Source of the DNA: Bacteroidota bacterium
Lineage (GTDB): Bacteria > Bacteroidota > Bacteroidia > Chitinophagales > UBA2359
Assembly: GCA_020631155.1 (NCBI GenBank)
Contig: JAHDHV010000005.1
Coordinates: 1-46,781 of the forward strand
Length of the DNA: 46,781 nt
Reading direction: 5' to 3'
The notes beneath the pieces are model-generated. The model was not told where the DNA came from and did no database searches. It was given only the letters and a program-made list of their open reading frames with translations. This document shows, in pieces, positions 5,938 to 28,344 of this stretch; within the stretch, counting starts at the first letter, position 1; each line of letters begins with the position of its first letter. A program made the translations under genes and the position numbers.

Positions 5938-8601
5938 CTACAAATCACGCCAATAACGTTTTCGAGTGAGTTTTAAGTCTTGTAAGACCGAAGATTTGAC
6001 ACGTAAAGTATATTCATAACGTTTGAATTGCCCAAAAGGAGAGATAAAAAAGCTCATTTCCCAACAATGTAGGTCTCGATAGATGTTAATGGTGGTACGT
6101 GCAAATTCTTTATTGGTAAAATCATAGCCTGAATTATAGCTCACTTTCCATTTGGGTGTAAGGCTAAAATCACCACCAAAATTGATCGTTTGCGTAACCG
6201 TATTCACATTTTCCCCCTCGCTACGCGTCCGATTGAGGCGCAAAGTATAGTCGAAGCGAAGATTCCAAGGCAGATTAAAATCCATAAACGCATCGGGATT
6301 TCGGCGCACTTCTTCCCGTTCCTGCTCACTCCCACGCGCTCTAGAAAGACGATTACGCAGATTCGGTTGCTTTTTCTTTCCCCCAAAATCCGTAGATTTT
6401 AAAGTTGTATTAAAGTTCAAATTCATACTTCGCAAGCGCAATAAACGCCTATTGACATCCCATTCAAAATCATCCAAAGCAACGCCATTTGCATCAATGG
6501 CATAAGGGTCTAATGTACCTGATATATCGAAATTTAGTTTGTTAAAAATGTTAGTGCCTGCACTAAATTGGAATGGAGCTAACTTTCGCCTTTCGGCAGC
6601 AAAATTGTAGGAACTGCCAATACGGAGGCGATCCAGTAATTTGATTTTCTTCTCTTTAGATTCTGTAGTATCCTTAGAAGAATGAATTTTAGCTTGCAAT
6701 ACATTGTTCAATGAAAAACTAATGGATGCCTGCTCGCTACTCGAAGGACCGCCATAAATACCATTACTAAATACAGAGTAAAGCGTATCACTCCCTATCT
6801 CACTGCGAAGGCTTGGGTCAGTGATGACATTGCCTGATGCATCGGTTATTTCTTGATAGTAATTCCAACCTGACTTGCTAAAATCAGGGCGATAGTTAAA
6901 GCTAAGACTTGGCGTAATCTCATGTCGAAGGGCTTTTAAACGTCCTTTTTTAAAATTAAAAATCCCAAAAAAGCGCGTGGACATACTCACACTACTGCTA
7001 AATTCTGCACCTGCCTTGAAGCCTCCCCTTGAAATAGTAGACACATGCGGCGCAATGGTATCTGTTTCAGTATAAGTAGTATCCCCTATCCATTGTTTAC
7101 GAGTCGTTTCAAAATACCCTACCCCCGTATACCTAATGCTGGGATTCACTTTTATATATTTAAATAAATTTAAGTCTGTTGATAAATTAGCGGTATGTTG
7201 AATCCCATGCTGAATTTCGTCTATGGCTTCTTTGGTAAAAAGCAACGAATCAGCAATAGATAATTCAGCTCTACTGCTAAGGGCAGAGTTGATGCCAATG
7301 CGCTCATACCATTTTTGCCCACCTATGGAAACTTTTCGCTTAAACGGAAATTGTCGTGCCATTGTGAGGGTCAGGTCAGGCAGGGTCAAACGTACAATAT
7401 TGGTGTTCAACTGCTGGTTGTGGCGCGCCGAAATGTTGAGGCTAAAAGGCGTACCCGGGAATCGCTGCCCGTAGGAGATACTAGAGGTTAAGGTATTGGT
7501 TAATACATCAGGGTTGGTTGCTTCAAATTCGCGGTTAAAGGTGCTGGTACCAAAGGTTACATTGGAAGAAAAATTGCTATTTGGTCGGGCTTTCCCGTCT
7601 TGAGCATGTCGCCATTCTACCTGAAAATTTTTGGTGATACCTGAGCCTCTTACCAAAGGATCGCCGACTTGTAGGTGTCCATAATTTACTGAAAAACGGC
7701 CGTCAAATTTATAGCGTTTGGCATAGCGTATTCCTGCTTCAGTGCGCCAACTACCATTGGTAAAAATATCACCTGTGAGGGCTAAATCAAAGTAATCACT
7801 AAAGCCGAAATAGTAGCCCCCGCCGCGTAAGTAATAGCCTTGATTGGGAGAAAATCCATAGGTTGGCAACACAATTCCCGATGTTTGCCCTTTTTGAATG
7901 GGAAAAATGCCGAAGGGTAATATCAAAGGTGTTGGCACATCTTGAATGACTAGATGTGCTGGACCTGAAACAATTAATTTGTTGGGAATAACCTTAACTT
8001 TGTTGACTTTTATTTTAAAATGTGGATGTTCTAAATTGCAGGTGGTGTAATAAGCATTTTTGGCAAATAATTCATCGTGTTCATTTTTTTTCACCTTTTC
8101 GCCACGCAAAAACCCCTCTCCTTCTTTGGTTACCAATTCAGAAATTTTTCCTTTTTTACTTTCAAAATTATAGGTCAATTGATTGGCTCTAAATTCTTGC
8201 GTTTTATCCGTAAAAACAGGTCGCCCGATTAATTGCCCTGTAGAATCCGTGCTGCCTTGAGCATCTACTATTTTGGCATTTTGGTCAAATATTAGGCGGT
8301 TGGCACGCAAAGCTATGTCATTTTGTTCTATTTTTGCGCCGCCATATAAAAATACTTTGCCATTCGTTACATCGTAAATAATAGAATCCTTTGCACTGTA
8401 AGTAACAGGTGCATCAAGAGTATCGGCAGCAAATTTCATCGTTTCGCCCTGCTTTGCCTCTTTTTTCACTGTAATAGTGTCTTGTTTTGGCAAGGTATCG
8501 CTCGGCTCAGTGGATTTGCTACTTGGTTGTGCATAGATTTCATTGTTACTCATAACAATACAACACAACAGTACGCCTAATATGAGGTTGGTAAATTTCA
8601 A
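5938..8601 (-). CDS. lptD: LPS assembly outer-membrane protein LptD
   Basis: The 887-aa product has a signal peptide (1-24), then an OstA/LptA-like jellyroll domain (about 65-220, with the pattern ADTLDAPVTYSAKDSIIYD ... KVFLYGGAKI), then a long beta-barrel with alternating strands and many aromatic girdle residues to the C-terminus. It is the outer-membrane translocon that, with LptE, inserts lipopolysaccharide into the outer leaflet. The length and the conserved LILPFGIFPIQKG-type segment fit Bacteroidota LptD. It is transcribed away from the amidase-MCE-OstA genes across a 1.1-kb gap invaded by two mobile-element copies. A TATTTTTG box (minus strand, 8663-8670) lies about 65 bp upstream and could be a -7 element. 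Confidence 0.9.
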   Translation of the reverse strand: MKFTNLILGVLLCCIVMSNNEIYAQPSSKSTEPSDTLPKQDTITVKKEAKQGETMKFAADTLDAPVTYSAKDSIIYDVTNGKVFLYGGAKIEQNDIALRANRLIFDQNAKIVDAQGSTDSTGQLIGRPVFTDKTQEFRANQLTYNFESKKGKISELVTKEGEGFLRGEKVKKNEHDELFAKNAYYTTCNLEHPHFKIKVNKVKVIPNKLIVSGPAHLVIQDVPTPLILPFGIFPIQKGQTSGIVLPTYGFSPNQGYYLRGGGYYFGFSDYFDLALTGDIFTNGSWRTEAGIRYAKRYKFDGRFSVNYGHLQVGDPLVRGSGITKNFQVEWRHAQDGKARPNSNFSSNVTFGTSTFNREFEATNPDVLTNTLTSSISYGQRFPGTPFSLNISARHNQQLNTNIVRLTLPDLTLTMARQFPFKRKVSIGGQKWYERIGINSALSSRAELSIADSLLFTKEAIDEIQHGIQHTANLSTDLNLFKYIKVNPSIRYTGVGYFETTRKQWIGDTTYTETDTIAPHVSTISRGGFKAGAEFSSSVSMSTRFFGIFNFKKGRLKALRHEITPSLSFNYRPDFSKSGWNYYQEITDASGNVITDPSLRSEIGSDTLYSVFSNGIYGGPSSSEQASISFSLNNVLQAKIHSSKDTTESKEKKIKLLDRLRIGSSYNFAAERRKLAPFQFSAGTNIFNKLNFDISGTLDPYAIDANGVALDDFEWDVNRRLLRLRSMNLNFNTTLKSTDFGGKKKQPNLRNRLSRARGSEQEREEVRRNPDAFMDFNLPWNLRFDYTLRLNRTRSEGENVNTVTQTINFGGDFSLTPKWKVSYNSGYDFTNKEFARTTINIYRDLHCWEMSFFISPFGQFKRYEYTLRVKSSVLQDLKLTRKRYWRDL

Positions 8602-9276: not shown

Positions 9277-9658
9277 GGTATGTCTCAAATACAGTGTTTT
9301 TCTACCTAACAGTTTGTGGCTACTTTGACAGTTCGTAGATTCGTGATTCGTTTTTGGGCTTTTTAGTTTCTTTTTGAATGAGTTCTGTAACGATAGTTTT
9401 AACCGTTATTAAGAGCCAAGCACTATTTAATTGTGCACAATTTTGTGCTAAAGTATTAGAAATAAGTAGTTTAGTCTTTTACTATTGTAACATTAATTTT
9501 GTCTAGGTACTTATTCTTATAAACAATTAATAATCAAAAATTGATAGCTATAAGAAAGTTCAAAAAATAATTTCCAATTTCTGAACACTAATCGCTAGTT
9601 TCTAACAGCTAAAAAGCCAACTCACAACCAAAGTGTTGGGATGATAGTGAAACATACC
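9277..9658 (+). mobile_element. MITE family 1, copy E (382 bp, perfect TSD)
   Basis: The ends are GGTATGTCTCA (one mismatch) and TGAAACATACC, flanked by a perfect 8-bp duplication GACAAAAG (9269-9276 and 9659-9666). The copy is about 70-90 bp longer than the others because of an extra internal segment (about 9416-9512, beginning near AAGCACTATTTAATTGTGC). Similar sequence recurs at about 20480-20580 outside any family 1 copy. The insertion ends 42 bp before the amidase start codon. A TAATTTTG box at 9494-9501 within the extra segment could act as a -7 element for that gene. Confidence 0.88.
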
Positions 9659-9700
9659 GACAAAAGACGTTTAAACACAATCCAAAATACAACATTTTTC

Positions 9701-10558
9701 ATGAAACGACATTTATTGTACACCCTAATTTTCACCCTTTGTTATTTATACCCAACCCTATCTGAACAAAAAACATTGAATTACAGCATCAAAAAAGTGG
9801 TGATTGATGCAGGCCATGGTGGTAAAGATCATGGCTGTTCGGGCAAAAAAAGTAGGGAGAAAAAAATTACCCTTGACATTGCCTTGAAATTAGGACAGCG
9901 CATCAAAAAATACACCAAAGGCGTGAAGGTCATCTATACACGTAGCAGGGATGTATTTGTTCCACTACATAAACGTGCCGCCATTGCCAACCGCAATAAT
10001 GCCGATTTATTTATCTCTATCCACTGTAATGCCTCCCCAACGCATCCACGCGCCTATGGTACGGAAACTTATGTGATGGGGGTAGACAAATCAGCGGAAA
10101 ATCTGGCAGTAGCAAGACGCGAAAACTCCGTTATTTTGCTAGAAGGCAGCAACTACCAAAAGCATTACGATGGTTATGATGTCAATTCTACAGAAAGTAA
10201 CATCGTTTTTTCCTTATATCAAAATGCTTATTTGGAGCAGAGTATACAATTGGCAAATCTTATTGAAAAGCAATTTAAGTATAAAAGTAAACGCAAAAGC
10301 AGAGGCGTGAAACAAGAAAGCTTTTTGGTACTGTACAAAACGGCGATGCCTAGTGTATTGATAGAAGCAGGTTTTTTGAGCAATAGAAAAGACGAAAAAT
10401 ATTTGCTCTCGGATATGGGACAGCGCATTACGGCTTCTGCTATTTTTCAGGCATTTAGAAAGTATAAGGAAATGCTAGAAGGCCGAGCTTTTTGGATGCC
10501 TCAACATTTGGAACAAGAAATGTTTGAAGAGGCAGGCATAGAAACAGCTTGTCATTAG
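9701..10558 (+). CDS. N-acetylmuramoyl-L-alanine amidase (Amidase_3)
   Basis: The 285-aa periplasmic zinc amidase cuts the MurNAc-L-Ala bond of peptidoglycan. Signature residues are H39 in VIDAGHGGKD, E53 in SREKKITLDIA and H108 in ISIHCNA as zinc ligands, and E232 in PSVLIEAGFLSN as catalytic Glu. I chose ATG 9701 because MKRHLLYTLIFTLCYLYPTL is a proper signal peptide. The longer frame from 9641 would take its first codons from the inverted repeat of mobile element E. The gene heads a plus-strand series with the MCE protein, the usual Bacteroidota order beside lptD. The element insertion has replaced the natural upstream region. Confidence 0.9.
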   Translation: MKRHLLYTLIFTLCYLYPTLSEQKTLNYSIKKVVIDAGHGGKDHGCSGKKSREKKITLDIALKLGQRIKKYTKGVKVIYTRSRDVFVPLHKRAAIANRNNADLFISIHCNASPTHPRAYGTETYVMGVDKSAENLAVARRENSVILLEGSNYQKHYDGYDVNSTESNIVFSLYQNAYLEQSIQLANLIEKQFKYKSKRKSRGVKQESFLVLYKTAMPSVLIEAGFLSNRKDEKYLLSDMGQRITASAIFQAFRKYKEMLEGRAFWMPQHLEQEMFEEAGIETACH

Positions 10559-11237: not shown

Positions 11238-12947
11238 GTGAAACTATCTAACGAAGCTAAGGTCGGCATTTTGGCAGCATTGGCCATTGCCATACTCATT
11301 ATAGGATATAATTTTCTGAAAGGGCAAAAGGTATTTGCTACTCAAAATACCTACTATAGTTATTATGATAAAATAGATGGGCTTTTGGAAGCCAATCCTG
11401 TGCAGATCAATGGCTTCTCTGTAGGGATTGTAAAAGGCATTGAATTAGAAGATAATTCTGAAAAAATAAAAGTCACGTTCTTGATTGATAAAAACATTAA
11501 AATTCCAGAAGGCACTGAAGCCGAAATTGTTAGCGTAGGCTTGTTGGGAGATAAAGCCATCAAATTGCATCGCCCTATTGCTAGTACAGCAACTGAATTG
11601 AAACAGGTAAAATATTTGCCGCCTGAAAGTTTTATTAGCGGAAAGTCTGAGGTCAATATGATAGATATGGCAATGTCACAAGTCGGCCCTATCAAGGAGC
11701 AGGGAGAGCGTCTGATTGTTTCTTTGGATTCTACGCTAAAAACGCTTCAGGCAATGGTGAAGTCGGGCGAGATGGATGAAATTATAGCCAATGTGGACAA
11801 AAGCATGAAAAATATAGAGGGTGTGTTGCGAAATGTGGATAAGGTAACAACTGATTTAAGCCAATTTACAGGTAATAATCTGGACAAAATTAGCAATCAG
11901 TTAACTAGTTCTTTCAATAGCGTAGAGGATTTGACCAATGGCGCGAAGGGTGTAATGGGCAATATTAATGGCATTACCCAAAATCTACAAAGTAGCCTCA
12001 ATAAAGTGGATGGCATCCTTAGTAGTGCCGATCGTGCGGCGGTAGGTGCAGCGCAAGCCGCTACTGGTGTAACAGAGGTTGTGAATAATGTTAAACAGTT
12101 ATCTAGTGGGCTGAATAAGGATATTTCCAAAATGACCAGCAATTTATCAGACGTAACCAATACGGTAAAGAATGCAACTGCAAAATTGCCTAATATTACA
12201 GATAATTTGGCGAAAGTTACCAATCAAGCCTCCAATTTATCCCAAGATTTAGGAAAAGTTACTGGTCAAGCAGCTTTATTTACTAAAGATTTGAGTAAAG
12301 TAACGGGTAAAGTCAATACCATTACAGATAACATGAGTAGCATGACGACCAATCTGAATAGCATGACTAAGGGCTTGTCTAAAGACATTACGAAAGCAAC
12401 CGCAGATATTACCAAAGCTACCTCAAATATTACCCAAACAACTGCCAATGCGGTGAAGATGTCAGAGAAATTTTCTAAGCTAGATATTCAAAAAACACTA
12501 GATGCCACCAATAGCACTATTGAGGCGGCTAAAACAAGCATTTCGGGAACGGGACAGCTTATTGCTCAGGCAAATACTATGGTTGGTAAAGCCACCAATA
12601 TTACGGATAATCTAAGCAAGATGACGGCTAAGATGGATACCATCACTGGCAAAATGAATGGCATTACAAATACTGTTGGCGAAATGACCCAAAATACCAA
12701 CGATATTATGGCTAAAATCAATAATGGAGAGGGTTCTGCTGGCTTGTTGATTAATGATAAAGCGTTGTACAATAATATTTCAGAAACTACAGGAAAAATC
12801 AATACCTTAGTCGGTAATTTACCAGATAACCCTAGAAAACTGCTCCATTTTTCTATTTTTGGCAGAAAAAAGAATAAAAAGAAAAAGAAAAAAGAGGAGG
12901 AAGAAAACAAACAAGCTTTAACTACACCTGCGCCAAAATTGAATTAA
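11238..12947 (+). CDS. MCE/MlaD-family lipid-transport protein with long helical tail
   Basis: The 569-aa product has an N-terminal membrane anchor (about 8-28) and one MCE domain (about 38-115, including VQINGFSVGIVKGIEL and GLLGDKAIKL). A very long periplasmic tail (about 140-530) is rich in Asn, Thr, Ser, Lys and Met, with repeated NLSKVT/TDNL-like helical units. The last 25 or so residues are strongly basic then acidic (KKNKKKKKKEEEE). MCE proteins form hexameric rings that bind phospholipids for transport between the membranes. In needle-type MCE proteins the helical tail builds a tube, which could apply here. The start is GTG. No MlaE or MlaF gene is adjacent. Confidence 0.88.
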   Translation: MKLSNEAKVGILAALAIAILIIGYNFLKGQKVFATQNTYYSYYDKIDGLLEANPVQINGFSVGIVKGIELEDNSEKIKVTFLIDKNIKIPEGTEAEIVSVGLLGDKAIKLHRPIASTATELKQVKYLPPESFISGKSEVNMIDMAMSQVGPIKEQGERLIVSLDSTLKTLQAMVKSGEMDEIIANVDKSMKNIEGVLRNVDKVTTDLSQFTGNNLDKISNQLTSSFNSVEDLTNGAKGVMGNINGITQNLQSSLNKVDGILSSADRAAVGAAQAATGVTEVVNNVKQLSSGLNKDISKMTSNLSDVTNTVKNATAKLPNITDNLAKVTNQASNLSQDLGKVTGQAALFTKDLSKVTGKVNTITDNMSSMTTNLNSMTKGLSKDITKATADITKATSNITQTTANAVKMSEKFSKLDIQKTLDATNSTIEAAKTSISGTGQLIAQANTMVGKATNITDNLSKMTAKMDTITGKMNGITNTVGEMTQNTNDIMAKINNGEGSAGLLINDKALYNNISETTGKINTLVGNLPDNPRKLLHFSIFGRKKNKKKKKKEEEENKQALTTPAPKLN

Positions 12948-12970: not shown

Positions 12971-13807
12971 ATGTTAGCAAATTTAGATAATGAAGTCATC
13001 TTTAAAAAGGCATTTACTGATAAAATTGTATTCACTGCCTTTGTTAAAGATATTGTCGGTATTGACATTGAAGTAGACGAAATTCAAACCGAAAAGAAAT
13101 TTGAACCGAAAGTCGGGCATATTGATTTTTCACTCAATATTTTTGCAGAAAGCAAAGATGAACGAATCATTACTGAAATTCAACTACTAGAATACGATCA
13201 CTACTTAGACGATTTTTCGCACTACATTTCTAAACAACAACATAGGTCTAGTGTATATTTTAATAAACAAATCTATACCATTGTCATACTCACTGCCCCC
13301 TATGAGTTCACAAGTAAATTACGTGAGCCCTTCAAAAATGAAGCCTTTATTTCAAGGCTTGATCCTAGAAGTGTAATGTGCAGTGAAGTGTTGACTTCTA
13401 AGCATCGCTTAATTTTTCTAAATCCTTATTATAAAAACAGTTTTAGAGATGCTCAATATAAAGATTGGCTAGATTTGATGTGCAAATCCAATCAAACCCG
13501 TAGCAACATCAAAATTAACTACAACAAAGCAACTATAAAGCGAGTGGCAGATTTAATCAACACATACAACCTAACACCAGAAGATCAAGCTGAACGAAAA
13601 AAGCGAGAAGCCACTAAAATTACAAGGAAACTCAATAAACACCATGCAAGAGAGGAAGGTATTCAAATAGGGGTTGAGAGAGTGAAAAAGCAAACTATCA
13701 TCAATGGACATAAAGAGGGCTTACCGCCAGCTTTATTGAGCAAAATCACTGGATTATCTGTTGATATTATACAAAAAATCATTAGTGATTGGCAAAAAGA
13801 ACAATAG
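12971..13807 (+). CDS. Rpn-family PD-(D/E)XK nuclease / transposase-like protein
   Basis: The 278-aa product begins DNEVIFKKAFTDK, then shows HIDFSLNIF (D52) and IITEIQLLE (E69, Q71). This is the PD-(D/E)XK core of the Rpn/PDDEXK_2 family, in which Q commonly replaces the final Lys. Family members are recombination-promoting nucleases, often annotated as putative transposases. The C-terminus is a basic, helical region ending in a SKITGLSVDIIQKIISDW motif typical of the family. It starts 23 bp after the MCE gene and ends 57 bp before the OstA-like gene, so it may be cotranscribed. No terminal repeats flank it. Its presence inside an envelope cluster suggests insertion. Confidence 0.82.
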   Translation: MLANLDNEVIFKKAFTDKIVFTAFVKDIVGIDIEVDEIQTEKKFEPKVGHIDFSLNIFAESKDERIITEIQLLEYDHYLDDFSHYISKQQHRSSVYFNKQIYTIVILTAPYEFTSKLREPFKNEAFISRLDPRSVMCSEVLTSKHRLIFLNPYYKNSFRDAQYKDWLDLMCKSNQTRSNIKINYNKATIKRVADLINTYNLTPEDQAERKKREATKITRKLNKHHAREEGIQIGVERVKKQTIINGHKEGLPPALLSKITGLSVDIIQKIISDWQKEQ

Positions 13808-13864: not shown

Positions 13865-16800
13865 ATGCATCTTTTTTTTTTGGAAAAAAATAACAAGCAC
13901 TATTGGCAGTTACTTTTGTGTATTGCTTGGCTTTTGCTAATGCCCTTACAATGCTTATATGCACAAGATGGAGATGAAAATGATAAGGTCATTGAAATCA
14001 AACAGGCTGATTTATTTGAATTTTCTAAAAAAAAGAATAAAGAAATTCGCAAACTCATTGGTGATGTTATCTTGCAGCAGGAAAATGTGGTCATGCAATG
14101 TGATAGTGCCTATTTTTTCTTTGAGGAAAATAATGTGGAAGCCTACCAAAACATTCACATCAAACAAGATTCTGTAGACATTTTCGCTGATTATCTTTTT
14201 TACAAAGGCAATACCAAAAAAGCTTACCTCTACAAAAATGTCAGCCTTAGCGATGGACAGTCCGACATCAAAGCGGACTCCCTTGTTTATGACATGAATC
14301 TCAAAAAAGCGGATTTAAATGGAAATGTTTATTTAACCGACAAAAAAACAGACGTTTATGCCGATAAATTAATTTATTTTGTCAATACCAAACAAGCCAA
14401 ACTGTCCAGCAATGTGCAGTTAGTCGATAAAAAAGTGGAGGTAACCTCCGATTTTTTAGACTATTCTGTACTAAGCAAAGATGCTTTGCTGAAAGGCAAT
14501 GTAAAAATGGATGATGGCAAAATTAAGGCAACTTCCGACTCCCTTGCCTATTCTGTTTTAACCCAAAAAGCAGAATTATTTGGTAATATCAATATGCAAG
14601 ATGGCGAAACGAATGTCACTGCTGATCGGGTGAAATACAACCCCAATTCGCAAAAGGCACGCATGTACGGGAATGTGAATATTGCGGATGGACAAACAAA
14701 GGCCAGTTCCGATTCTTTGATTTATTCTTCTCGAAAAAAAGAAGCTCGTTTGTATGGAAATGTGAAAATGAATGAGCAAGAAACCAATGCTACTGCCGAT
14801 TCCCTTGTCTACTCCACCGCTACCAAAAGCACCGAATTATTTGGTCAGGTAAACATGCAGGAAGGCACAACCAATGCCACCGCCGACCGCCTACAATACG
14901 ATTCAGCGACTAAAACTACCCAACTGATCGGCAATGTAAATATGAAAGACGGTAATACAACCGCCACTGCCGACCGCCTCGACTATGACCCCGCCACGAA
15001 AAACGCCATTCTAAAGGGCAATGTCCGTATGAAAGATGGCAATACAACTGCTACCGCCAACCGCCTCGACTACGATTCGGCGACTAAAAATGCGGTGCTG
15101 AAAGGTAATGTCAAAATGGATGATGGGACGACCAAAGCATCTGCTGATGAACTGGACTATGACTCGGCAACGAAAAATGCGGTACTGAAAGGTAATGTCA
15201 AAATGAATGATGGGACAACCAAAGCTTCCGCCAACCAACTTGATTATGATTCGGCGACTAAAAATGCGGTGCTGAAAGGCAATGTCAAAATGGATGATGG
15301 AACGACTAAAGCATCCGCTGATGAGCTAGACTACGATTCTGCCACAAAAAATGCGGTGCTGAAAGGTAATGTCAAAATGGACGATGGAAAAACGAAGGCT
15401 TCGGCTGATTTTTTAGACTATGATTCAGCGACTAAAAATGCAGTACTGAAAGGCAATGTCAAAATGGATGACGGCACGACCAAAGCCTCTGCCGATGAGC
15501 TAGATTATGATTCTAGCACAAAAAATGCGGTGCTGAAAGGCAATGTAAAAATGGATGATGGAAAAACAAAGGCTTCATCCGACTATTTAGATTATGATTC
15601 GGCGACTAAAAATGCGCGCTTGTATGGAAATGTACAAATGCAGGAAGATAAAACGACTGCTACTGCTGATACTTTGCTTTATTTTTCCCAAACAAAAGAT
15701 GCTCATCTATTTGGCAATGTAAAAATGGTGCAGGATAGCACAACCGCCACCGCCGATAAATTGATTTATTATTCTGCCACCAAAGAAGCGCGCTTATTTG
15801 GTGATGTGGAAATGCAAGACGGTGATACCAAAGCTACTGCCGATACTTTGATGTATATGCCTGAAAATAAAAAGGCGTATTTGTATGGCAATGTAAATAT
15901 GCAGGATAAACAAACCAATGCCAATTCGGATATGCTGGTTTACCATACAGAAACAAAGGCTGCGCGCATGTATGGGGATGTGAATATGAAAGCAGACAGC
16001 ACCAATGCGCGCGCTGATTCGCTGATTTATTCTCCCGAAACAAAAAACGCTTATTTATACGGCAATGTCGTTTTACAAGACAGCAGCACCAATGCTACCG
16101 CCGACTCGTTGCATTATTTTACCGAAACAAAAAACGCCCATCTCTACGGCAAGGTGCATATGAAAGATGACAAAGCCGATGTCCGTTCTGATTCGCTCAT
16201 TTACGATTCTCAAACAAAAGCTGCCCGTTTGTATGGAAATGTGCAAATGGATGATGGCAAAACCAAAGCTCTGTCCGATTCGCTCATTTATTCGCCCGAA
16301 AATAAAACGGCGCGTTTGTATGGCAATGTGCAAATGAATGATCAGGATACGAAAGCAACTGCCGACTCCCTCCTCTACTCTACCGAATCCCAAGAAGCAC
16401 AATTATTTGGCAAGGTCAATTTAAAGGATAAAAATGTGGATGCTACCGCCGATTCGGTGATTTACGACCCACAGACCAAAAATTTACAACTCTACAAAAA
16501 TGTAGTGCTCAAAGATAGTACAACTACTGCCACCTCTGATTCGCTCATTTATTCTGCCGATCAAGAAAAAGCATGGCTCTATGGCAATGTTCATATGAAA
16601 GATGATAAAGTCACTGCCACCGCCGATTCCGTTATTTATCACAGCCCAACAAAAGACGCTACTTTTTATGGAAATGTGGAATTGACGGATGGAAAAACCA
16701 ATGCAACGGCCACCGATTCCTTGATTTACTCCTCTGAAACCCGAAAGGCGCGAATGTATGGAAATGCTCATATCGTAGACGAAAAAGCGGATGCTACCGC

Positions 16801-18622
16801 CGATTCGGTGCGCTACGATATGGAAACAAAGGATGCGGTATTGTTTGGAAATGTGGAATTAACCGATGGAAAAACACTCGCTACCTCCGATTCACTGATT
16901 TATGCTTCTGAATCGGAAAAAGCGCGAATGTACGGCAATGCCAAACTCAAAGATGAACAAGTAGATGCGACTGCTGATTCGGTGATGTATGATATGGCAA
17001 CTAAAAGTGCGATTTTGTACCAAAATGTGGAATTGAAAGATAGCACGACTACCGCAAATGCCGACTCGCTCATTTACTCACCTGATACGGAGCAGGCACG
17101 CATGTTTGGAAATATTCAAATTAGCGATGAAAAGGTGAAGGCTACCGCCGATTCGTTGACTTATTTAATGAAAACAAAAGATGCCAAGCTCTACAGCAAT
17201 GTGCATGTGTATGATGAAAAAACAAATGCCTATGCCGACTCTTTGATCTACGCTGCTGAAGGTGAGGTGTTACGCATGTTTGGCAATGTTAAAATAGCTG
17301 ATGACAAAATAAATGCTGCCGCCGATTCTGCGCGTTATAACCGAGCGAGTAATGACATTGCTTTGTACAATAATGTCAAATTGATTGATGGCGATAAAAC
17401 TCTGGAAACCAACAAATTAGACTATAATACAGAAACCGAAAAGGGAGTTTACACCAATGGCGGTACGCTTACGGATAAGGACACTAAATTGCGAAGTAAG
17501 AAAGGATATTTGGATAGAAAAGCGGATAAGGTATTGTTTGAAGACAGCGTTTATTTAAAATCGCCAGAATACGAATTGCTCACCGAAAAACTCGACTATG
17601 ACCTAAAAACCGAAAAAGCGGACTTTAAAGGAAAAACCACGATTAAAAATAAAGACGGTTATAGTATTATTGGAGAAGAAGGTACTTATGAACCTGATAA
17701 AGAGGATATTGTGCTCACCAAACGCGCAACCCTCGCCCGTCCTCCGCAAATGTTAACGGCGGATAAATTCCACTATGATAAACTGCTTGGCTTTGGCACA
17801 GCAGAAGGGGATGTGGAATGGATAGATACGGCACAACATTTGATAATCAATAGTCAACAATTGCATTTTTATGACAAAAACGACCGAGTAGATGCTTTTG
17901 AGGAGGTATTGTTGCGAAATATTATAGACAAAGACACCCTTTTTCTAACAGCTGATACCCTTAAAACATTTACTGATACGACTAGCATTGTTCAAACTAA
18001 CAAGGAAGATACAACAGCGATGGCATCTACAAAAAAAGATACTTTGAAAACCTTTTATGCCTATCGAAATGTTAAGATATTAAAGCGTGATATTCAAGGC
18101 GTTTGCGATTCTTTGGTTTATTCTTTCACCGATTCCATGTTTCGTATGTATGTGCAGCCTGTTTTGTGGAGTAAAGACTACCAATTATATGCAGATACTA
18201 TTTTTTTACAGACCCAAAATAATCAACCTTATAAGATAGATTTGTTAAAATCTGCATTTATTGGCAACAAATTACAAGAAAATGTGTATAATCAGGTAAC
18301 AGGTAAAGACATCACTGCTTATTTTTTGACCAATTCTTTAGATAGAATTTTGGTGGAAGGCAATGCGGAAAGTATTTTTTATGGTCAAAATGAAAAAGAA
18401 GAATACTTAGGCGTGAATCGCTCTATTTGTAGTCGTATGTGGGTTCATTTTGCCAAAAGGAAAGTAGATAAAATTCGCTTTTTAGAAAAACCAGATGCTA
18501 CTTTTCACCCCATTCAACAAGTTAAACCCAAGCAATTTATACTGAAAGGTTTTGATTGGAAAGAGCAACGCCGCCCAAAATCATTGAAAGATTTGCTAGG
18601 TAAAGATTTGGCGAGGAATTAA
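13865..18622 (+). CDS. Giant OstA/LptA-like protein with about 39 tandem 29-aa repeats
   Basis: The 1585-aa product has a signal peptide (about 14-33). From about residue 64 to 1195 it carries some 39 tandem repeats of 29 residues with consensus ADSLIYdsxTKnArLyGNVkMxDgkT. This is the OstA/LptA jellyroll repeat seen in LPS-transport bridge proteins. A non-repetitive C-terminal region (about 1200-1585) ends in GFDWKEQRRPKSLKDLLG, as in ordinary Bacteroidota OstA-like proteins, which I recall as roughly 500-600 aa. The repeats thus account for most of the extra length. Seven central repeats (residues 402-605) are almost identical in protein and DNA. The location next to the MCE and amidase genes and near lptD supports a role in carrying LPS or another lipid across the periplasm; that role is inferred. 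A run of ten T residues lies in codons 3-6. Confidence 0.85.
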   Translation: MHLFFLEKNNKHYWQLLLCIAWLLLMPLQCLYAQDGDENDKVIEIKQADLFEFSKKKNKEIRKLIGDVILQQENVVMQCDSAYFFFEENNVEAYQNIHIKQDSVDIFADYLFYKGNTKKAYLYKNVSLSDGQSDIKADSLVYDMNLKKADLNGNVYLTDKKTDVYADKLIYFVNTKQAKLSSNVQLVDKKVEVTSDFLDYSVLSKDALLKGNVKMDDGKIKATSDSLAYSVLTQKAELFGNINMQDGETNVTADRVKYNPNSQKARMYGNVNIADGQTKASSDSLIYSSRKKEARLYGNVKMNEQETNATADSLVYSTATKSTELFGQVNMQEGTTNATADRLQYDSATKTTQLIGNVNMKDGNTTATADRLDYDPATKNAILKGNVRMKDGNTTATANRLDYDSATKNAVLKGNVKMDDGTTKASADELDYDSATKNAVLKGNVKMNDGTTKASANQLDYDSATKNAVLKGNVKMDDGTTKASADELDYDSATKNAVLKGNVKMDDGKTKASADFLDYDSATKNAVLKGNVKMDDGTTKASADELDYDSSTKNAVLKGNVKMDDGKTKASSDYLDYDSATKNARLYGNVQMQEDKTTATADTLLYFSQTKDAHLFGNVKMVQDSTTATADKLIYYSATKEARLFGDVEMQDGDTKATADTLMYMPENKKAYLYGNVNMQDKQTNANSDMLVYHTETKAARMYGDVNMKADSTNARADSLIYSPETKNAYLYGNVVLQDSSTNATADSLHYFTETKNAHLYGKVHMKDDKADVRSDSLIYDSQTKAARLYGNVQMDDGKTKALSDSLIYSPENKTARLYGNVQMNDQDTKATADSLLYSTESQEAQLFGKVNLKDKNVDATADSVIYDPQTKNLQLYKNVVLKDSTTTATSDSLIYSADQEKAWLYGNVHMKDDKVTATADSVIYHSPTKDATFYGNVELTDGKTNATATDSLIYSSETRKARMYGNAHIVDEKADATADSVRYDMETKDAVLFGNVELTDGKTLATSDSLIYASESEKARMYGNAKLKDEQVDATADSVMYDMATKSAILYQNVELKDSTTTANADSLIYSPDTEQARMFGNIQISDEKVKATADSLTYLMKTKDAKLYSNVHVYDEKTNAYADSLIYAAEGEVLRMFGNVKIADDKINAAADSARYNRASNDIALYNNVKLIDGDKTLETNKLDYNTETEKGVYTNGGTLTDKDTKLRSKKGYLDRKADKVLFEDSVYLKSPEYELLTEKLDYDLKTEKADFKGKTTIKNKDGYSIIGEEGTYEPDKEDIVLTKRATLARPPQMLTADKFHYDKLLGFGTAEGDVEWIDTAQHLIINSQQLHFYDKNDRVDAFEEVLLRNIIDKDTLFLTADTLKTFTDTTSIVQTNKEDTTAMASTKKDTLKTFYAYRNVKILKRDIQGVCDSLVYSFTDSMFRMYVQPVLWSKDYQLYADTIFLQTQNNQPYKIDLLKSAFIGNKLQENVYNQVTGKDITAYFLTNSLDRILVEGNAESIFYGQNEKEEYLGVNRSICSRMWVHFAKRKVDKIRFLEKPDATFHPIQQVKPKQFILKGFDWKEQRRPKSLKDLLGKDLARN
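14894..15676 (+). repeat. 87-bp coding tandem repeats inside the OstA-like gene
   Basis: Units start every 87 bp without gaps at 14894, 14981, 15068, 15155, 15242, 15329, 15416, 15503 and 15590. The last seven encode DYDSATKNAVLKGNVKMDDG almost without change. Third-base differences remain between units (for example GAC/GAT and TCG/TCA). The array therefore expanded recently relative to the flanking diverged repeats, and copy number could still vary in frame. Confidence 0.85.
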
Positions 18623-26592: not shown

Positions 26593-28344
26593 TCATACAG
26601 AAATAGACAACAAATCAACCTCCACAATCTCCCCAACATTGCCCACAAACACCACCACATAAGCCTTTAAATCGCCGCCTTTGACGAGCTCTTGCAAATA
26701 AGCATCATTTTCAAGATAAGCTTGGAGTTGTTCAATAGCTCCTGCTTTGACGGCAGTAGTCCTTGCAGTATCCGACTTTTTGACATATTTAAATTCTATA
26801 ACAAATTGATAAGTCGGTTTGTAAGGCGGTCGCCGAATGAGGAGAATGTCTACATAACCTTTTTCTGTCGCTGATTTTTTTACTTCCTTTTCGTTGTGAA
26901 TGGTGTAAATGCCTGAGGTATAAAAAGCAGAGGTAAATATTACTTTCACATATTTTTCATCAAAGCGCATTTTGTCGCGGTTGGAGAGTTCCGTTAAAAT
27001 CGCTTCGGTATAGGCAACCAAAGGGCGGATGTCATTTTGCTGGGCAAGGGTTTTTATTTTCTGTTGAACATCAATTTCGCTGCCTGACAGTTCGCTTTGT
27101 TCTAAAATAATTTGGTGAAAATATTGATAATACAGTTGCTCAATGACGTAGTTCGGCATCCGAAAGATTAAGTCCTCTAAATCTTCCTTTACAATGGTCA
27201 AAATACCCATATAGTACAAGAGACTGACAAAATCATGGCTGCCAAAACGCCGCTCTAAATCAAATTGACGGATTAATTTGGCAGTGAGTGTCCCTGTTTC
27301 AAGGAGTTTGTTTAAATGTGCTAAATGTGCTTTTTCCTTGCCCTTGATTTTAAATAAACGGCGGATTTTTGTAAAGTCACTTGCTATATTGGGGTCTAAT
27401 AATTCTTCTGGTGGATATCTATCATCATTGTAATAGGAAGTAAAATACAATACCATATCAGAATTATAAATGCGCTCTGTCATTTTTGTATTAAATACAT
27501 AGCCATCATACCATGCTTTTAAATCTTTTTTCACCTTTACTAACTCATTATCAGGTATTTTTATAATGTCCAATATTTTATTAACTTCCGCTTCTGTAAA
27601 ACCCATCATAGCGTTAAATCGCTCATACAAACTAATATTGGTTGAAATATTAAAGCCACTTGTAAGGCTGTCTAGTGTAATGGGGGAAACTCCTGTTACA
27701 AATATTCTATCCACAACTCCATTTCGAGTAGCGGTTTTGATGGCTTCAAAAAATTTGCGAACAAAGCCATTTTGCCCAACCATTCGATTAAAATCATTAA
27801 AGTGAAAGGCTAATATTTCATTGGCAAAATGATCGTATTCGTCTATCAATAAATAGATTTTTTGACTACGGGCTTTCGCTTCAACCTTACGGAATAAATA
27901 TTGAATAACTTTAGCAGGATAATCATATTTTTCTATACCATTTATATCTTCCTGATTAAAAATATCATTGTATTTTGTAAAAAATCGTTCAACACCATCT
28001 TTTACATTTTCTAAAAAAGCATCAAAAGTATTTTCAAAAGAAGAGGTATCCATTTGCGAGAAATCGAATACCAATGTCAAATAGGAATTGGCTAGGCGTG
28101 TTGGATGTTGACCAATGTAATAGTTGCCAAATAAAGTTTGAAAATTAGCTTTATGTTCGATACCATAATAATGTTCTAATAAAGAAATAAACAGACTTTT
28201 CCCAAAGCGACGAGGGCGTAAAAAAAATAAATATCGCTGGCTCATTTCTTCTAATTGCTGCACATAAGCAGTTTTATCTATATATAAATAGCCATCTGTA
28301 ATTAAAGTTCCAAAATGGCTAATGCCGTAGGGTATTTTTGTCAT
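26593..28344 (-). CDS. AAA-ATPase-like / DUF1703 PD-(D/E)XK protein
   Basis: The 583-aa product starts IPYGISHFGTLITDGYLYIDKT and has the P-loop-like RPRRFGKSLF (43-52) and LLIDEYDHFAN Walker B-like segment. These define the AAA-ATPase-like family (PF09820 type). The C-terminal domain holds D499 and E517-x-K519 (VDILL ... FVIEFKY), the PD-(D/E)XK core of DUF1703. Such genes occur in many copies in Bacteroidota and other genomes. Their role is unsettled, with links to mobile elements or defence proposed. The upstream gap to the oxidoreductase gene holds nothing recognisable. A palindrome and mobile element copy F lie downstream. Confidence 0.9.
   Translation of the reverse strand: MTKIPYGISHFGTLITDGYLYIDKTAYVQQLEEMSQRYLFFLRPRRFGKSLFISLLEHYYGIEHKANFQTLFGNYYIGQHPTRLANSYLTLVFDFSQMDTSSFENTFDAFLENVKDGVERFFTKYNDIFNQEDINGIEKYDYPAKVIQYLFRKVEAKARSQKIYLLIDEYDHFANEILAFHFNDFNRMVGQNGFVRKFFEAIKTATRNGVVDRIFVTGVSPITLDSLTSGFNISTNISLYERFNAMMGFTEAEVNKILDIIKIPDNELVKVKKDLKAWYDGYVFNTKMTERIYNSDMVLYFTSYYNDDRYPPEELLDPNIASDFTKIRRLFKIKGKEKAHLAHLNKLLETGTLTAKLIRQFDLERRFGSHDFVSLLYYMGILTIVKEDLEDLIFRMPNYVIEQLYYQYFHQIILEQSELSGSEIDVQQKIKTLAQQNDIRPLVAYTEAILTELSNRDKMRFDEKYVKVIFTSAFYTSGIYTIHNEKEVKKSATEKGYVDILLIRRPPYKPTYQFVIEFKYVKKSDTARTTAVKAGAIEQLQAYLENDAYLQELVKGGDLKAYVVVFVGNVGEIVEVDLLSISV

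Follow-up and report, generated by a model that had tools for sequence, protein, structure and literature searches.

The window analyzed here, a stretch of 46,781 nucleotides, encodes a single-chain OstA/LptA-type protein of 1585 aa, here named P0001. P0001 is probably an Lpt bridge that grew together with the periplasm, which would be about 30 nm wider than in its relatives; the chain would run straight from membrane to membrane and carry LPS. Beyond this protein, sequence comparison makes it probable that in two or more lineages within one Chitinophagales family the periplasm is wider by about 13-19 and about 31-34 nm, respectively, and that the Lpt bridge, MCE, TamB, GldM and RND adaptors were re-tooled via their spacers only, so that the genome alone would report the periplasm width. 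New in P0001 are its length, about two and a half times that of its relatives, and the parallel stretching of other machines. The genome carrying P0001 is referred to as G000; the other stretched genomes are G010, G015 and G007.

Organization of the P0001 locus

The gene order within the window is lptD (-), amidase (+), MCE (+), an Rpn-like ORF (+) and OstA (+). P0001 had originally been placed between lptD and MCE, but it follows the MCE gene and the Rpn-like ORF. The features are:

5938..8601, minus strand: lptD (LptD_2; PF19838, E 9e-162), syntenic and of ordinary length (length ratio 0.97), a control
9641..10558, plus strand: N-acetylmuramoyl-L-alanine amidase (PF01520), syntenic and of ordinary length (length ratio 0.95), a control
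11238..12947, plus strand: MCE/MlaD protein (PF02470) of 569 aa with a lengthened, mostly helical tail; 312-378 aa in relatives (length survey)
12971..13807, plus strand: Rpn/PD-(D/E)XK-nuclease-like ORF (transposase-related family; weak TIGR01784 match), between MCE and OstA
13865..18622, plus strand: P0001, putative OstA/LptA-type single-chain bridge protein of 1585 aa (ORF and translation; Pfam PF13100, PF03968, PF06835; NCBIfam TIGR03002, TIGR04409)
13865..13966, plus strand: probable signal peptide, aa 1-34; hydrophobic stretch ending in LYA before QDG, recognized by eye
13967..14488, plus strand: N-terminal conserved part, aa 35-208, aligning with every short relative (relatives match aa 35-214)
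14489..17362, plus strand: expanded spacer array, aa 209-1166, with 33 tandem 29-aa repeats of two predicted antiparallel strands each (inter-repeat similarity, TRF, AlphaFold2 strand pairs); not in short relatives
17363..18619, plus strand: C-terminal conserved part, aa 1167-1585, putative docking end common to all relatives (closer relatives share 33-51% identity across about 410 aa)

The cassette of lptD (-), amidase, MCE and OstA was found in this arrangement in many Chitinophagales loci whose flanks were long enough, and the window has one extra ORF. This Rpn-like ORF was absent from the searched loci of relatives and does not belong to the conserved cassette. The host genome carries lptC, lptF/G and lptD as well as lpxC (lipid A synthesis). 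Elsewhere in the window (26593-28344) an AAA-ATPase_like and PDDEXK_9 ORF is present, a common selfish or defence-like element of Bacteroidota.

The 29-residue repeat array

A repeat HMM built from P0001 itself detected 40 repeats, of which 38 are nearly complete. Between aa 94 and aa 1195 they follow one another at exactly 29 residues, apart from one interval of 30 residues near aa 934, and TRF gave a tandem-repeat period of 87 nt. In Pfam, 14 stretches matched OstA_2, 15 LptD_N/LptA and 5 LptC, with whole-protein E-values of 4e-130, 6e-107 and 3e-52, respectively. The score against PF13100 was 429.9 bits at a curated cut-off of 21.2, which makes P0001 a member of OstA_2. Repeat HMM and Pfam thereby bore out the original prediction of about 39 continuous OstA/LptA-type repeats of 29 residues in the 1585-aa protein, which begins with a hydrophobic, signal-like segment (probable signal peptide).

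Both ends are orthologous to those of the relatives, whose N-terminal part aligned to aa 35-214 and whose C-terminal part aligned to aa 1167-1580. Because short relatives match these two ends only, the middle must have grown by about 950 aa. Of the repeats, here numbered by residue, 122, 151 and 1167 were closest to repeats of relatives and repeat 180 to those of the G015 group; repeats 209 to 1138 were mostly most similar to one another. The growth of P0001 is, judging by these similarities, a tandem expansion inside a conserved frame. The most recent, nearly identical units are located at aa 412-585.

All lengths were taken from MAGs, and the source MAG of P0001 consists of 666 contigs (6.5 Mb) with 3.5% contamination, which could speak for an assembly or binning artefact as the explanation of the long protein. 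However, no exact repeat within the gene is longer than 35 nt, and even in its most uniform block 12-33% of bases differ between paired repeats; most of these differences are synonymous, with dN far below dS. The stretching pattern recurs in four genomes. Furthermore, two relatives from separate MAGs (L066 and L067) carry versions of P0001 of 1137-1152 aa with 25-26 repeats, which aligned without gaps over 1137 residues at 89% identity (dN 0.064, dS 2.4). An assembly artefact, against which the original prediction had itself cautioned, is hardly conceivable and was rejected on exact-repeat length and synonymous divergence between the repeats.

In the comparison of L066 and L067 the constraint on the repeat region equalled that on the ends (dN/dS about 0.027 in both), and P0001 is under purifying selection. 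The repeats at aa 412-440 (15098-15184) and aa 470-498 (15272-15358) encode the same protein sequence, while 14% of their bases differ, all synonymously (dN 0, dS 1.2). This pair may reflect either strong constraint at the protein level or selection against DNA identity between copies.

Single-chain OstA proteins in Bacteroidota

The OstA family was present in 378 of 392 Bacteroidota genomes. A survey of orthologue lengths, proposed beforehand as a check, set P0001 with its 1585 aa against ORFs of 395-934 aa among the matches listed; members of the order without stretching measured 499-773 aa among those listed. A one-chain OstA_2 of usually 500-700 aa, beside lptD, amidase and MCE, is the norm in Bacteroidota. 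Covalent fusion was consequently rejected as the novelty of P0001. With the OstA_2 family (PF13100) the orthologous P0001 shares the cassette, the conserved N- and C-terminal parts and the 29-residue unit, but it differs from the listed members in length and in its about 39 regular repeats, the expansion being confined to the middle.

Class-mates (family code f23; loci L038, L040, L042 and L044) carried OstA ORFs of 740-934 aa with few recognizable repeats in the partial sequences, together with an ordinary TamB. The extra length of OstA in f23 is of another kind. OstA length alone was rejected as a ruler, since in f23 it is long while TamB is ordinary. Additionally, a 3355-aa ORF at G004:C102:19523-20131 weakly matched OstA repeats.

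Predicted structure and similarity to LptA

A phmmer search of P0001 against PDB sequences gave no match, and structures were therefore compared. The AlphaFold2 model of aa 1051-1585 had a pLDDT of 91.7. For aa 36-1235 (pLDDT 84.7) 86 consecutive antiparallel strands were predicted, two of 10-12 residues per repeat, with a pTM of 0.42, so that the overall straightness of this long model is without confident prediction. VIA-align matched the model to LptA (2r1a_C; Z 17.3, 2.0 Å over 119 residues), LptH (4uu4; Z 16.1) and LptC (3my2; Z 15.1), and stretches of the long model also matched LptH, LptA and LptC at about 2 Å. The predicted models have the LptA beta-jellyroll fold. One LptA corresponds to about four repeats, and the array to about ten LptA equivalents. 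Repeat positions 1, 5, 7, 14, 19 and 21 are hydrophobic in 36 of 36 repeats and most positions between them are polar, an alternation as a lipid groove would need. Structure prediction of the array, which had been suggested as a check, yielded a continuous strand series with these fixed hydrophobic positions at low confidence in its straightness.

Proteobacterial LptA (YhbN; 2r1a) resembles P0001 in the predicted fold (2.0 Å over 119 aa) and in the Lpt partners encoded in the genome. In contrast to P0001 as one 1585-aa chain, it is small (about 185 aa) and stacks end to end. P0001 would work like LptA but, not being a small polymerising monomer, is no member of the short LptA type. From the single-chain conduit originally proposed, the uninterrupted covalent LptA-type beta-structure was recovered in the prediction; its covalency is not new, and P0001 may bind and conduct LPS and contact LptC and LptD.

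Stretching of other trans-envelope machines

All trans-envelope machines tested in G000 were stretched, in each case in spacers and with the docking ends kept. MCE reached 569-589 aa (569 aa in G000) and 473 aa in G015 versus 312-378 aa in nearly all relatives. The long neighbouring MCE led to the prediction that a wider gap needs the other spanning machines to be longer as well, which was set before the lengths of TamB, GldM and the adaptors were examined.

TamB reached 2723-2732 aa (2732 aa in G000), 2391-2392 aa in G015/G010 and 2283 aa in G007, compared with 1555-1771 aa in full-length relatives and 1416-1792 aa for the majority of ORFs from various other Bacteroidota. The growth was located after its N-terminal end. 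RND adaptors had 841 and 921 aa in G000, 695 and 717 aa in G010 and 586 and 629 aa in G007, most relatives having 350-490 aa. In a one-to-one orthologue set the N-terminal (102-109 aa) and C-terminal parts (234-249 aa) of the adaptor were constant and the alpha-hairpin alone grew, from 100-128 aa in ordinary adaptors to 282 aa in G007, 366 aa in G010 and 562 aa in G000, free of proline. No short copy of TamB or of the RND adaptor was found in G000; G007 also has adaptor-like ORFs of ordinary length (393 aa).

The two GldM proteins of G000 have 818 and 726 aa versus 512-560 aa elsewhere. Domains 2 and 3 are separated, exactly at their junction, by coiled-coil inserts that contain prolines; these measure 306 and 214 aa in G000 and 112 aa in G007. 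The G000 copies are located at L215 3120-5573 (contig C581; insert 306 aa) and L216 2814-4991 (contig C163; insert 214 aa), and adjacent gldK, gldL and gldN were unmatched. In G015 a similar coiled-coil insert is broken by an assembly gap; because this run of N falls within the ORF, the seemingly short GldM there (522 aa) was left aside as a measure of length.

Agreement of distances and controls

Lengths were converted to distances with beta-strands 4.8 Å apart, the textbook spacing, and straight helices of 1.5 Å per residue. The whole P0001 chain would measure roughly 45-50 nm, if straight, more than the width of an ordinary periplasm. Over the family medians, the gains in G000 were 31.4 nm for OstA, 33.3 nm for MCE and 33.6 nm for the adaptor. 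The corresponding gains in G015/G010 were 17.6, 16.8 and 18.9 nm, respectively, and G007 gained 12.9 nm in MCE and 12.6 nm in the adaptor. Across 32 genomes the slope was 0.231±0.013 MCE residues per OstA residue (0.205±0.042 without the two extremes), against 0.221 expected for a stack of beta-strands and an alpha-helix that bridge one and the same gap. The gain of TamB was non-linear (+1100, +760 and +651 aa for about 33, 18 and 13 nm), and as one straight helix the 306-aa GldM insert, the longer of the two in G000, would be too long.

Strict length ratios of the controls were 0.97/1.01 for LptD, 0.95/1.01 for the amidase and 1.00 for one other ORF, and the TolC partners were of ordinary length (471 and 459 aa). 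P0001 length covaries with the other spanning proteins and not with the controls, the spanning families being a chosen set and the non-spanning controls few. LptD length did not serve as a ruler (rho 0.01) and was kept as a control; since in loci without lptD some of the LptD entries behind this correlation were OstA matching itself, the strict ratios are preferred.

A proposed wider periplasm and alternative explanations

We propose that all membrane-to-membrane machines were lengthened because the gap between the membranes grew. P0001 would be the LptA-equivalent of the Lpt system, one covalent LptA-type beta-structure whose conserved ends dock at the inner-membrane side (LptC/F/G) and at the outer-membrane side (LptD), and between the two ends LPS would travel along a hydrophobic groove. 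Only the middle would have been lengthened, through tandem duplication of the two-strand unit of 29 residues, by about 33 units or 31 nm relative to close relatives. The distance between the membranes would have grown by about 30 nm in the G000 lineage, and Lpt bridge, MCE tube, TamB, GldM shaft and RND adaptor would have been lengthened by a matching distance.

A continuous conduit over an ordinary periplasm, new through its covalency, as originally suggested, would account for the LptA-like predicted fold and the Lpt partner genes. However, the one-chain OstA of relatives (500-700 aa, about 0.33 Å per residue) would already cover roughly 17-20 nm, and the extra 31 nm are too long for a normal gap, for which 210 Å has been cited in E. 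coli (PMC5575297). As this reading also leaves MCE, TamB, GldM and the adaptors unexplained, we consider it very unlikely. Neutral inflation, with genomes tolerating slippage and the extra OstA repeats looping out or being dispensable, would fit the recent, nearly identical array units (aa 412-585), the repetitive nature of TamB and OstA and the large genome (6.5 Mb). Against this, five unrelated folds gained matching distances, only spacers grew while both ends were kept, and the repeats are constrained like the ends, the 412/470 pair differing synonymously only. The MCE tail and the adaptor hairpin are moreover not tandem beta-repeats, and non-spanning proteins are ordinary, which renders neutral inflation quite unlikely.

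The spacing could also be wide only locally or against another structure, such as a thicker layer of cell wall, invaginated membranes or a special compartment. Protein lengths, which are what the genome data provide, are silent on where the gap is wide, and TamB and GldM depart from strict proportionality. However, stretching was seen in all of the Lpt, efflux and gliding/T9SS machines, which normally occur all over the cell surface, and short TamB or RND adaptor copies were absent from G000. A merely local widening is thus unlikely, and a generally wider periplasm remains the preferred explanation.

Comparison with known systems

Single-protein trans-envelope bridges are also represented by the elongated MlaD of Veillonella parvula, whose modelled length of 23.5 nm fits the measured periplasm of 24.2 nm (PMC10665443). 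There, one protein (419 aa) is concerned at ordinary width, whereas several machines are stretched in G000, with an MCE of 569 aa and a presumably greater width. In E. coli Lpp+21, lengthening of Lpp by 21 residues made the periplasm 3-4 nm wider and stressed trans-envelope machines including Lpt; the authors mention that Geobacter may have a longer Lpp naturally (PMC8824477). Here too, a changed inter-membrane distance would affect trans-envelope machines including Lpt. That change was engineered and small with unaltered machines, while the natural genomes analyzed here appear adapted to a change about ten times larger. A literature search, with many journals outside its coverage, returned no report of coordinated scaling of several trans-envelope machines.

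It is an open question whether the Lpt, MCE and TamB proteins are fixed bridges, and so are the required number of LptA units and the control of periplasm width; these lengths bear on each. For E. coli the number of LptA across the periplasm has been described as undetermined (PMC5575297). Beta-structure, helix tube and alpha-hairpin appear to grow by the same nm with the gap, which supports the bridge model for each at once. If true, periplasm width would be predictable from genomes.

Origin of the stretching

In the tree of the TamB C-terminus, G000 was placed apart from (G007,(G010,G015)), and the unstretched G005 was sister of the latter group. The stretched taxa as one clade were rejected (AU p = 0.0067) in this tree, in which long branches are present; a single origin is disfavoured notwithstanding these branches. 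Given the rejection of a single clade by the AU test, at least two gains of the stretching, or else repeated losses, are probable. The OstA repeats of the stretched taxa clustered by genome. Mildly longer proteins were seen at locus L262 (G003:C331), a mild intermediate with an OstA ORF of 773 aa and an MCE of 419 aa but a TamB of ordinary length (1635 aa).
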